Shown: positions 712 to 4,181 of the stretch, in pieces
Numbering within the stretch: the stretch's first letter is position 1
Layout of the letters: each line of letters opens with the position of its first letter
Source: an uncultured Pelagibacteraceae bacterium
Lineage (GTDB): Bacteria > Pseudomonadota > Alphaproteobacteria > Pelagibacterales > Pelagibacteraceae
Assembly: GCA_902595115.1 (NCBI GenBank)
Contig: CACJOS010000006.1
Span: 1-63,872 of the forward strand
DNA: 63,872 bases
Reading direction: 5' to 3'
Program-made: the position numbers and the translations under genes
Notes under the pieces: model-generated
Databases searched by the model: none
What the model was told of the DNA's origin: nothing
What the model saw: the letters and a program-made list of their open reading frames with translations, nothing else

Positions 712-1527
712 TTATAATTTCAAATTTATATTTTTGACCTCTGAAACTGGTCCAGTCATAAAAATATTATTATATTTATCTACCTCAATATTCAAAACAC
801 CTTTTTTAAAATTTATGTTAACTTTATTATTAACTAAATTTTTCTCTATAGCAGCAACAGCAGATGCGCACGCTGCCGTACCACAGGCTTTAGTAAGTCC
901 CGCTCCTCTTTCCCATACATTCACAGTTATATTATTTTTATCTGTGACTTCAGCAAATGTTACATTTATTTTTTCGGGAAACAGATCATGATTTTCAATT
1001 TGAGGACCTATTATTTTTAAATCATAGTCAAAACAATTTTTTACAAAAAAAATTATGTGTGGGTTCCCTACATTGACACAAAATCCATTAGAAAATGTTT
1101 TATCATTTATTTTTAAAGTTACATCAGCAGGATTTATTGTCTTTGATAATGGAATATCCTCAAAACTAAACAAAGGTTTTCCCATTTCAAGTTCAACTTG
1201 TAAATCTCCAACTATTTTTGCATTAAGCACTCTATTGTTTGTCTTTAACTTTATTTGTTTGGTATTTAATTTTTCACCCAAAAGATAAGCTACGCATCTT
1301 GACCCGTTTCCACAAGCGCTTACCTCACCTCCATCAGAGTTAAATATTTTTATAGGAAAAGAACTTTCTTGTTTTTTATCTATGAAGATAATTTGATCAA
1401 ATCCAATATTAGATCTGTCTCCTAATTCAATAATTTTTTCCTGTGTCAAATTAATTGAATTTTCTCTTCTATCTATGATGATAAAATCGTTTCCTAAACC
1501 ATCCATTTTGTAAGCATTAAATTCCAT
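712..1527 (-). CDS. dapF: Diaminopimelate epimerase
   Basis: Converts LL- to meso-diaminopimelate, the last common step toward lysine and the peptidoglycan cross-linking residue; cytoplasmic and cofactor-independent. The 271 residues match the usual family length. Both catalytic cysteines are visible: C72 in ACGNGSRC and C215 in KACGTAACA, the two-base mechanism pair. The ATG at 1525-1527 opens the protein with the typical YKMDGLGNDF segment. It is followed after one base by ftsY on the same strand, and its promoter must lie in the 158-base divergent gap shared with ffh. Confidence 0.96.
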   Translation of the reverse strand: MEFNAYKMDGLGNDFIIIDRRENSINLTQEKIIELGDRSNIGFDQIIFIDKKQESSFPIKIFNSDGGEVSACGNGSRCVAYLLGEKLNTKQIKLKTNNRVLNAKIVGDLQVELEMGKPLFSFEDIPLSKTINPADVTLKINDKTFSNGFCVNVGNPHIIFFVKNCFDYDLKIIGPQIENHDLFPEKINVTFAEVTDKNNITVNVWERGAGLTKACGTAACASAVAAIEKNLVNNKVNINFKKGVLNIEVDKYNNIFMTGPVSEVKNINLKL

Positions 1528-1549: not shown

Positions 1550-1575
1550 TTGACTTTTTGAACCTCTATTATAGT
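1550..1575 (+). promoter_or_regulatory. Possible promoter for the ffh leader RNA
   Basis: TTGACT at 1550-1555 and TATAGT at 1570-1575 resemble sigma-70 elements, but the 14-base spacer is shorter than ideal. Transcription from here would begin at about 1581-1582, just at the first predicted hairpin of the leader RNA. Weak by itself; position relative to the structured RNA is the main support. Confidence 0.3.
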
Positions 1576-1580
1576 TTATC

Positions 1581-1685
1581 GCCACTTCCGCAAAAGTAAG
1601 CAATTTGCGGTGTCTTTGGAAACAAAGAGATCGACACCAGTCAGCGAGGGTTCGCCCACTGGTGCGATTGCTGCTGTGTAAAATT
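1581..1685 (+). ncRNA. Structured RNA leader immediately upstream of ffh (candidate ffh RNA motif)
   Basis: This GC-richer island in an AT-rich gap has several pairings. CCGCAAA (1588-1594) can pair TTTGCGG (1604-1610). AGCAAT (1599-1604) can pair ATTGCT (1667-1672). GGTGTC (1609-1614) can pair GACACC (1633-1638), enclosing a GAAA-capped hairpin. CACCAGT (1635-1641) can pair ACTGGTG (1658-1664), enclosing GGG-TTCG-CCC. Some pairings exclude each other in part, as in a switch or a three-way junction. The RNA ends only about 13 bases before the ffh ATG. I recall that comparative work on Pelagibacter reported a conserved RNA upstream of ffh; whether this is the same motif is not verified. The conserved 4.5S/SRP RNA core (GGAA-capped helix with AGCAG) was not found here. 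Confidence 0.65.
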
Positions 1686-3044
1686 ATGTTTGAAAATTTG
1701 ACAAATAAATTTGAGGAAATTTTTTCTTCTTTAAAAAAAGCCCCATCACTTGATGAAAAACAAGTGGATGAAGGATTAAGGTCTGTTCGGCTAGCTCTTC
1801 TTGAAGCAGATGTATCCTTAGATGTTGCAAAGCAGTTTATAGAAAATGTTAAGCCAAAGGCATTAGGAAAAGAAATTGTTAGGTCAACTTCACCTGGTCA
1901 AATGGTTGTTAAAATTGTCTACGATGAATTAGTCAATTTTCTAGGAAGCAAATCTGAAAAAATAAATCTTAATGCAGTTCCACCAGTTTCAATGATGCTA
2001 GTGGGTTTACAAGGATCAGGTAAAACCACCTCTGCTGCAAAAATCGCAAAGTATATTGAGAAAGTAAATAAAAAAAAAATTATGATGGTGAGCTTAGATG
2101 TTTACAGGCCAGCTGCTCAAGAACAATTAAAATTGCTAGGTGAACAAAATAATATTTTAACATTACCTATAGTCGAAGGACAACAACCTTTGGATATTTG
2201 CAGACGTGCTCTTAGCGCTGCAAATTTAAACGGATCAGAGGTAATAATTTTCGATACAGCAGGTAGAACGCAAATAGATCTGCAAATGATGAGTGAAGTT
2301 AAACAAATTGAGCAAACAATTAATCCATCTGAAACTTTACTTGTTGCTGACTCTCTTACTGGGCAAGTAGCAGCAAATGTTGCTAAAGAGTTTAACAGCA
2401 CTGTCAATTTAACAGGAATAATTCTTACAAGATCTGATGGTGACGCAAGAGGCGGTGCTGCTTTAAGTATGAAATATGTATCGCAAGTTCCAATTAAATT
2501 TTTAGGTGTGGGTGAAAAAATCGATAACTTAGAAGAATTTCATCCCGACAGAATTGCTAACAGAATCCTTGGTATGGGAGACATAGTTTCCCTAGTTGAA
2601 AAGGCCACTCAAGACTTAGACGAAGAGAATTTAAAAAAAACAGAGGAGAAATTGAAGAAAGGTCAGTTTTCATTAGATGATTACCTTTCTCAATTGCGAC
2701 AGATGAAAAAGATGGGAGGAATTGAGGGTATTATGTCTTTTTTACCTGGTGTGTCAAAAATAAAAAATCAAATGGATCAAGCTGGAGTAGATGAAAAAAT
2801 TGTAAGTAAAAATGAGGCTGTAATTTTATCTATGACAAAAAAAGAGAGATCAAATCCAAAAATAATAGATGGATCAAGAAAAAAAAGAATTGCTAATGGC
2901 TCAGGTACTGACATTGCCACTATCAATAAATTGTTAAAACAATTTAAAATGATGTCTGAAATGATGAAGAAGATGTCTAAAGGAAATATGAAAGGTTTGG
3001 AGGATAAAGGAATTCCGCCAGAACTTTTTAATCAACTAAAATAA
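1686..3044 (+). CDS. ffh: Ffh / SRP54, signal recognition particle GTPase
   Basis: Protein component of SRP; binds signal sequences and 4.5S RNA and delivers ribosomes to FtsY. From the ATG at 1686 it has 452 residues. Domains in order are the N domain (about 1-95), the G domain with P-loop GLQGSGKTT (about 107-115), DTAGRTQ and [10 protein letters not shown], and the methionine-rich M domain from about 300 with repeated MM/KM segments. The reading frame stays open upstream to 1605, but those 27 codons read through the structured RNA and do not resemble Ffh, so I chose 1686. No clear Shine-Dalgarno precedes the ATG, so initiation may depend on the leader. It leads the rpsP-trmD-rplS group. 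Confidence 0.96.
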
Positions 3045-3057
3045 TAAAAGGAGAAAA

Positions 3058-3489
3058 ATGTTAAAGTTAAGATTATCAATGGGTGGAACAAAAAAAAGAC
3101 CTGTTTATAAAATTGTGGTTGCAGATAGCAGATTCCCAAGAGATGGAAGATTTATTGAGAAACTTGGTTTTTTCAATCCACTTTTACCAAAGGAGAAAAA
3201 GGAAAGAGTTGGTTTACAATCTGAGAGAATTAAATATTGGTTAAGTCAAGGTGCTAAACCAACAATGCGTGTAGCAAGAATTCTCGGAGAAAATCAATTA
3301 ATGGAAATGCCGGCGAAGGGTAATAATCCTTTAAAAGCAGTTCCAAAAAAAGACAGAAAAAAAGAAGCTAAGGATGATGCTCCTAAAGATGGAGAAAAAA
3401 AAGCTGAGGCTCCAAAGGAAGCTCCTAAACAAGAAGAGAAAAAAGCTGAGGCTCCAAAGGAAGCTCCTAAACAAGAAGAGAAAAAATAA
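3058..3489 (+). CDS. rpsP: 30S ribosomal protein S16 with a repetitive Lys/Ala/Glu/Pro tail
   Basis: S16 is needed for 30S assembly. Residues 1-80 are the conserved domain ([18 protein letters not shown] onward). The 143 residues far exceed the usual 80-90. After about residue 95 the chain becomes charged and low-complexity, and it ends in two near-perfect 42-base repeats (3394-3435 and 3436-3477), each coding a 14-residue [14 protein letters not shown] unit, then EKK. The start follows a clear AAAGGAG box. It sits 13 bases after ffh and 2 bases before trmD. The tail is likely a disordered, RNA-friendly extension that grew by tandem duplication (inference). Confidence 0.95.
3394..3486 (+). 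repeat. Tandem 42-bp coding repeat at the 3' end of rpsP
   Basis: Two adjacent 42-base units (3394-3435, 3436-3477) differ essentially in one Glu codon (GAA or GAG), followed by the first 9 bases of a third unit before the stop. They encode the 14-residue Lys/Glu/Ala/Pro unit at the S16 C-terminus. The near-identity suggests recent slippage or duplication, or possibly selection for repeat homogeneity. Confidence 0.9.
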
Positions 3490-3491
3490 AA

Positions 3492-4181
3492 ATGTTTATT
3501 GCCAAAGTATTTACTCTTTATCCAGATTATTTTCCTGGACCACTTAACAAAGGTCTTTACGGAAAAGCTATGGAAAAAAAAATTTGGGGTTTAAAAACTA
3601 TAGATATTAGAGAATACGCATTGGATAAGCACAAAACAGTTGATGACACACCTTATGGAGGTGGATCAGGAATGCTTCTTAAACCAGATGTTATTGCAAA
3701 ATCAATAGATGCAAATACTAAAAATGGAGAAAAAATTTATTACCTTTCTCCAAGGGGCAAAGTATTTAATCAAAATATTGCAAAAGAAATATCTAAAGAA
3801 AATAAGGTAAATATAATTTGCGGACATTTTGAAGGTATCGATCAAAGAGTTTTAGATAATAGAAAAATAGAGGAAATAAGTATTGGTGACTTTATATTAT
3901 CTGGAGGTGAAACTGCTTCGTATGTTTTTTTAGACTCCATTTTGAGATTGATACCAGGCGTTATTGGCAACGAAGATTCCAAAAACGAGGAAAGCTTTGA
4001 AAATGGCTTACTAGAGTATCCTCAGTATACAAAGCCACAGATTTGGGAGGAAAAAAGCGTTCCAAATGTACTTTTATCAGGTGATCATGCGAAAATTAAA
4101 GACTGGCGTTTAACGCAATCAAAGGCTATAACACGCGACCGAAGACCAGATTTATGGCAAAAATATAATAAAAAGAATTAA
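3492..4181 (+). CDS. trmD: tRNA (guanine-37-N1)-methyltransferase
   Basis: Methylates G37 of tRNAs for Leu, Pro and Arg with SAM, preventing +1 frameshifts. The 229 residues match the SPOUT family. Visible motifs are FTLYPDYF at the N-terminus, [35 protein letters not shown] and [11 protein letters not shown], which form the trefoil-knot SAM site. It starts 2 bases after rpsP and ends 16 bases before the rplS ATG. In most bacteria rimM lies between rpsP and trmD; here there is no room for it. Confidence 0.96.

Follow-up and report, generated by a model that had tools for sequence, protein, structure and literature searches.

In Meyer et al. 2009 (PMC2704228), the ffh motif is one bulged hairpin that has two conserved cytosines and lies nearly always before ffh; the available part of that paper raises a role in ffh regulation, leaves the partner of the motif unnamed and cites its detection in small-RNA metatranscriptomes. 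In Rfam, the motif is family RF01793, typed 'Gene; sRNA'; ffh leader RNA is among the expressed RNAs of Bartonella in the accessible portion of PMC7717549, and an ffh RNA is also named in the excerpt of a Mesorhizobium list. A predicted leader of Flavobacteria, thought to bind ribosomal protein S16, is described in the accessible sections of Eckert and Weinberg 2020 (PMC7247131). In the partly available literature covered by our search, to which subscription journals contributed little, no assignment of the ffh motif to S16 or another partner was found after Meyer et al. 2009. The structured RNA element analysed here is itself already known as the ffh motif; what is new is that the structure is larger than the Rfam model and that it tracks rpsP, the gene of S16, rather than ffh. 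Given the linkage that we observe, we consider it probable that the leader is the autoregulatory leader of the rpsP operon and that S16 binds it.

The window, by which we mean the whole analysed stretch of 63,872 nucleotides, carries the plus-strand row ffh-rpsP-trmD-rplS opposite the divergent dapF, with a GC-rich island between dapF and ffh (Table 1). The first-pass annotation of the window had pointed to this island and to complementary arms in it, and it was right on both: GC is 0.518 at 1588-1672 compared to 0.303 in the whole window, a value reached by 18 of 63,787 sliding 85-base windows with the island's own neighbours counted in, and the arms CCGCAAA (1588-1594)/TTTGCGG (1604-1610), GGTGTC (1609-1614)/GACACC (1633-1638), CACCAGT (1635-1641)/ACTGGTG (1658-1664) and AGCAAT (1599-1604)/ATTGCT (1667-1672) are all present. 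The gap of about 13 bases that it gave between island and start codon likewise holds (last arm up to 1672, ffh ATG at 1686-1688, 21 bases after the end of hairpin C), and we agree, judging by eye, that no clear Shine-Dalgarno precedes this ATG. A coding leader was also considered, as a reading frame from TTG 1605 of the window stays open into ffh. In this SAR11 window, rimM is absent between rpsP and trmD (3489-3492).

Table 1 Features of the leader and its operon, in positions of the window.
Feature	Position	Strand	Description
dapF	712..1527	-	Divergent neighbour; marks the ancestral leader site, also in the PS1 clade
Promoter-like site	1550..1577	+	TTGACT 1550-1555, 16-base spacer, TAGTTT 1572-1577
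Hairpin A	1588..1610	+	CCGCAAA/TTTGCGG; 3' strand CGG common to helix B
Helix B	1608..1633	+	Outer CGGU 1608-1611/AUCG 1630-1633; inner UCUUUG 1613-1618/CAAAGA 1623-1628; GAAA loop 1619-1622
Hairpin C, RF01793 core	1635..1664	+	CACCAGU/ACUGGUG; C.C 1642/1657; A.C 1643/1656; GCGA/UCGC; loop 1648-1651
3' tail and start-codon approach	1665..1685	+	Seen in aligned leaders, uncounted
ffh	1686..3044	+	452 aa
rpsP, ribosomal protein S16	3058..3489	+	143 aa; proposed ligand; query protein for the S16 searches
trmD	3492..4181	+
rplS, ribosomal protein L19	4198..4740	+	Listed from TTG 4183; ATG 4198 by eye

In an Rfam search, RF01793 scored 58.3 bits over 1620-1672 against a gathering score of 35, the model being covered at positions 1-52 of 52; no other family matched here up to E = 1. 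A motif that the first-pass annotation mentioned as reported upstream of ffh in Pelagibacter is, as far as the accessible text goes, the ffh motif of Meyer et al. 2009 (PMC2704228). Folding z-scores were -3.29 for 1584-1690 and -3.03 for 1635-1664, with 1 of 200 shuffles equally good in each case. Folded for minimum free energy, the window sequence forms helix B and hairpin C, while the 5' part of hairpin A pairs with the tail.

For the analysis of covariation, 74 distinct leaders from 95 loci of the SAR11 order were aligned. Compensatory changes in these leaders support a selected, structured leader RNA in the form of hairpin A, helix B and hairpin C. In helix B, 98.6% of the cells are paired and four of nine counted pairs are changed on both sides; in hairpin C, this applies to two of 12 counted pairs within SAR11 and to many more across the class. 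Taken jointly, helix B and hairpin C are paired in 94.5% of the cells, compared to 34.0-42.1% in slid controls, and have 80 doubly changed cells compared to 21.2 in shuffles, with a covariation score reached by 0 of 500 shuffles; paired cells, changed cells and score alone exceed every shuffle, the six doubly changed pairs being reached by 22 and the pair types by 359 of 500. Hairpin A is paired in 94.7% of the cells with two pairs changed on both sides, a number reached by 213 of 500 shuffles, whereas none of the 500 reaches its nine doubly changed cells or its score. Hence, the leader is larger than the Rfam model, as hairpin A and helix B upstream of hairpin C are also under selection.

Some of the structures named earlier were dropped. 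The GGTGTC/GACACC helix is paired in 92.1% of the cells, but no pair is doubly changed and the helix performs like its own shuffles; the three inner pairs fail in 9, 22 and 4 of the 74 leaders. Of the two proposed hairpin caps, GAAA (1619-1622) stands, whereas the TTCG tetraloop gives way to the pairing GCGA/TCGC (1644-1647/1652-1655), which is formed in 74 of 74 SAR11 leaders. AGCAAT/ATTGCT, i.e. the loop of hairpin A with the tail, is paired when the single sequence is folded by energy, but the aligned positions are kept in just 11 to 53 of 74 leaders, and the pairing was dropped as a general feature; it may belong to part of family f1. As to the tail itself, GCUG[GU] is seen by eye in many SAR11 leaders and a GCUUUGG-like sequence often in other orders (L033-L077 and window positions 1665-1685); a single-stranded motif of this kind appears, again by eye, about 7-9 bases 3' of hairpin C in many lineages.

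Two mutually exclusive folds had also been proposed from the window. Such pairings are supported, though not with the arms GGTGTC/GACACC named for them, which are without covariation. Those with compensatory support are 1588-1590/1608-1610 and 1608-1611/1630-1633, such that the strand CGG (1608-1610) pairs with CCG (1588-1590) in hairpin A or with UCG (1631-1633) in helix B. At 1590, 1608 and 1633, 69 of the 74 leaders have G-C-G, four have A-U-A and one has G-U-G, and thus both pairings are kept by every leader. In a tree of Ffh N-termini, which holds 62 of the 74 rows (the other 12 were missed by the start pattern), three of the A-U-A rows (L050, L053, L054) form a clade, and the fourth, L178, stands apart from them, nested in the genus of the window with the G-C-G leader L199 as sister. 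Compensatory support of one strand for two partners is what a switch would leave, and equally what a base triple would. An alternation between A and B as the switch is possible on these grounds. G.G-C and A.A-U base triples are isosteric, and the exchange could accordingly mark a triple in which A and B form together and not alternately; the conservation of both pairings in all 74 SAR11 leaders and the two places of A-U-A in the tree would suit this. We nevertheless find such a triple somewhat unlikely, because the minimum free energy fold has helix B and not hairpin A and because the PS1 clade, in which helix B is kept with exchanges of its own (e.g. CAAU/AUUG in L218), has by eye lost the CCG of hairpin A. 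This is a structural sub-question that is compatible with S16 as ligand and with the rivals discussed below.

The promoter-like site in Table 1 predicts a transcript start at about 1584, just 5' of hairpin A. The site is conserved at the level of sequence: among the loci found by sequence pattern, to which all promoter counts refer, 128 of 129 distinct leaders have TTGAC 5' of the hairpin C core compared to 9% of shuffles, 65 of the 128 at a distance of 93-94 bases, and TAnnnT at a spacing of 16-17 is also present in 78 of 129 leaders (59 of 73 from SAR11, 19 of 56 others). A generic promoter scan reported no promoter at this site; we infer that it is a working one. The pattern located the motif in 151 loci; the 48 loci that it missed were viewed by eye only and are absent from the promoter and spacing counts. 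According to tblastn alignments extrapolated to the first residue of Ffh, hairpin C (the base matching 1663) is 21-43 bases from the ffh start in 95 SAR11 loci and 18-293 bases in 55 non-SAR11 loci.

In 387 genomes of the class, RF01793 was matched in 112 at E <= 0.001, 86 of them above the family cut-off, and 110 of the 112 loci (not G506 and G298) were fetched. From the SAR11 leaders we built a model, R1. Of 100 class loci presented to this model, it matched 99, with 93 in full length, and it found 123 of the 387 genomes at the E-value at which RF01793 found 112; no R1 match was obtained in the remaining 264, under strict filters that also dropped RF01793 genomes such as G146, G147 and G173. 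RF01793 was not matched in 36 of 150 relatives, including seven of the 33 best assemblies. From the R1 matches that were new relative to RF01793, 40 loci were fetched and the others, mostly weaker, were left out. A class-wide alignment retained 81 of 109 rows after short and antisense rows had been dropped; like a further alignment of this work (A3), it was fitted to the model and is biased to the model's structure. In this alignment, hairpin C is paired in 80 or 81 of 81 rows at 11 of 12 positions, while the twelfth, beside the C.C mismatch, reads A.C in 36 rows, C-G in 19, A.A in nine, U-A in six, G-U in five, G-C in three, U.U in two and A-U in one. The A.C of the window is thus replaced by C-G, U-A or G-U in other orders, and this is a pair position adjoining a conserved C.C mismatch. 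The mismatch together with its alternating neighbour (L032-L140) resembles a protein contact site.

The gene order around the motif was compared in 80 of the 112 RF01793 genomes, taking the best match where a genome had two (G208; G409 for S16). A same-strand rpsP no more than 6 kb downstream was found in 78 of the 80 and such an rplS in 67. The exceptions for rpsP are two: in G288 the motif is at a contig edge, and in G337, which gave no S16 match, the ffh frame has 253 aa, with unrelated sequence after it. rplS is 2 Mb off in G382, on the opposite strand in G415, 7.4-11.6 kb downstream in five genomes of family f21 and on another contig in six. In five genomes of the same family, rpsP is 3.4-5.1 kb from the motif, and ORFs that by eye resemble acetyltransferases lie between ffh and rpsP (L305, L306). 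The 40 further R1 loci have the order motif-ffh-rpsP in 38 cases, and trmD was found in 35. In the other two the motif does not precede ffh: G484 has it, with a TTGACT of its own, after the stop of ffh and ahead of the start of rpsP, with rimM following, and G381 has it 285 bases before rpsP and the SRP54 genes on separate contigs. The two motifs are weak matches (27.4 and 26.7 bits, each the single match in its genome), though at the expected place and with the core retained. In G484, G270, G155 and G268, the 2.4-3.9 kb fetched downstream of rpsP showed neither trmD nor rplS. In a set of 200 motif loci (the window being counted twice), 193 have ffh, five have rpsP and dapF without ffh, and two (L120, L127) have neither ffh nor rpsP, as their contigs end there.

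All five of these ffh-less loci belong to one family, f42 (PS1/OCS116; L206-L219, L221-L224, L308), which we call the PS1 clade and of which 18 genomes were covered. RF01793 is matched in 14 of them, and in 14 of these 14 rpsP follows directly 3' with no ffh in the locus; the four genomes without a match include the 96%-complete G531. In L308, rpsP is followed by rimM, trmD and rplS. Searches for the SRP54 GTPase family (Ffh or FtsY) gave no hit above cut-off in the 18 genomes, apart from one sub-cut-off fragment of 20.5 bits, and neither TIGR00959 (five genomes) nor the SRP RNA RF00169 (18 genomes) was detected; in control genomes, SRP54 was found in 14 of 14 and RF00169 in 11 of 14. In a further SRP54 search, two strong genes were recovered from the 0.9-Mb genome G381, as opposed to just two fragments of 16-17 bits from six PS1 genomes. 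Of the 18 PS1 genomes, six are 93-97% complete. Hairpin C still shows compensatory exchanges in the 12 distinct PS1 rows (one pair GC in eight and AU in four, another CG in six, UA in five and UG in one), at a weak statistic, its seven pairs being reached by 64 of 500 shuffles. PS1 is thus a marine clade with no detectable signal recognition particle (SRP), and seems to have lost it. According to the accessible part of PMC7844537, SRP is conserved in all living organisms and yet dispensable in yeast, in Streptococcus mutans and in E. coli with suppressors; it would be unusual for a natural bacterial clade to lack SRP, and our search for papers on the PS1 clade and SRP found none.

Taken together, the linkage is to rpsP and not to ffh, rimM, trmD or rplS: rpsP is the sole gene common to all informative rearranged arrangements, as would be expected for the gene of the ligand, and a covarying RNA lies upstream of it on what, from strand and spacing, we take to be the same transcript. 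A position upstream of ffh applies to the window, but not to the 14 PS1 genomes, G381 and G484, and the name of the motif is therefore a poor guide to its function. In our model, the transcript of ffh-rpsP-trmD-rplS would start at about 1584 with the leader at its 5' end, free S16 in excess of rRNA would bind the core formed by helix B and hairpin C, and translation of the operon would go down upon binding; in SAR11, the bound or refolded leader, 21 bases from the ATG, would hinder loading of the 30S subunit. The comparisons show the structure and the linkage, whereas S16 as ligand, repression on binding and this direction of control are inferred and probable. The wide spacing between hairpin C and ffh outside SAR11 may speak against one simple occlusion mechanism for all lineages. 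More doubtful, though possible, is a switch in which CGG (1608-1610) alternates between A and B and S16 on the B/C core toggles the operon including the SRP protein; if this were true, SRP supply would be slaved to ribosome supply and the S16 part alone would remain in PS1. A resemblance of the leader to rRNA, which is not obligatory for a leader of this kind, was not seen: R1 scored at most 6.1 bits (E 0.93) in the E. coli rrnB stretch, within 23S, the longest word shared with E. coli 16S has 9 bases compared to a shuffle mean of 8.25, such that shared words are no longer than by chance. We had suspected that one strand of hairpin C might be complementary over 8 bases to helix 15 of alphaproteobacterial 16S; in E. 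coli 16S, the longest antisense word is 7. The rRNA site of S16 is tertiary, and the missing resemblance thus does not settle whether S16 is the ligand.

The first-pass annotation had seen the purpose of the leader in the control of SRP protein synthesis, which we do not uphold, as the motif covaries before rpsP where no Ffh is detected and lies downstream of ffh in G484. The same observations bear on an autoregulation in which Ffh, at times of 4.5S RNA shortage, would bind hairpin C of its own mRNA. The presence of ffh in 193 of 200 loci fits this explanation and, like the many relatives in which the motif is unmatched, counts against S16, and a role in ffh regulation is raised in the available text of Meyer et al. 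2009 (PMC2704228). An Ffh sensor would, though, have ffh as the regulated gene wherever the element occurs; with the motif kept and covarying in PS1, placed after ffh in G484 and in an ffh-less locus in G381, this is not the case, such a sensor fails to explain PS1, and we regard it as very improbable. Another product or signal of the operon (L19, TrmD or a growth-rate factor) might be the ligand instead, S16 being only the commonest passenger. TrmD is an RNA-binding enzyme, and the frequent presence of rplS and trmD near the motif is in line with a role of their products. The unlinked rplS in G382 and G415 and the four loci in which neither gene was found downstream make this unlikely in our view. 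Finally, the motif might act free of any ligand, either as a constitutive mRNA element (for stability, 5'-end protection or initiation without a Shine-Dalgarno) or as a processed small RNA, in agreement with its Rfam type and with its expression in Bartonella (PMC7717549) and in small-RNA metatranscriptomes (Meyer et al. 2009, PMC2704228), as far as both sources are accessible. Conservation of the mismatch and the core seems to exceed what stability would need, and we hold this explanation to be quite improbable.

An assignment to S16 would give the ffh motif a specific and testable partner and would explain why the motif survives where ffh is gone. If it is true, S16 is a leader ligand in Alphaproteobacteria, and in every operon headed by ffh the SRP protein shares its control with a ribosomal protein. 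The L19 leader, reported from Firmicutes and, in the accessible sections of PMC7247131, from Flavobacteria, takes its name from L19, which this operon encodes as well. With the motif described here, however, rplS can be unlinked. The short string GUCAG is probably common to the leader and to helix 8 of 4.5S/SRP RNA. Helix 8 has no resemblance to the ffh motif according to the available part of Meyer et al. 2009 (PMC2704228). The S16 leader of Flavobacteria (PMC7247131) is likewise structured and directly before rpsP, usually with rimM, but it is listed for Flavobacteria, and the accessible main text does not contain 'ffh'; this comparison is one by description and not by structure. The closest known system is RF01793 itself (PMC2704228): hairpin C belongs to the same family, lies in the same place and is the same bulged hairpin with two conserved cytosines. 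It differs from the Rfam model and from the accessible text of Meyer et al., which have one hairpin, in that hairpin A and helix B are also selected here and the bulge is a C.C mismatch by a covarying position, and while RF01793 is named for ffh, the association that we find is with rpsP.
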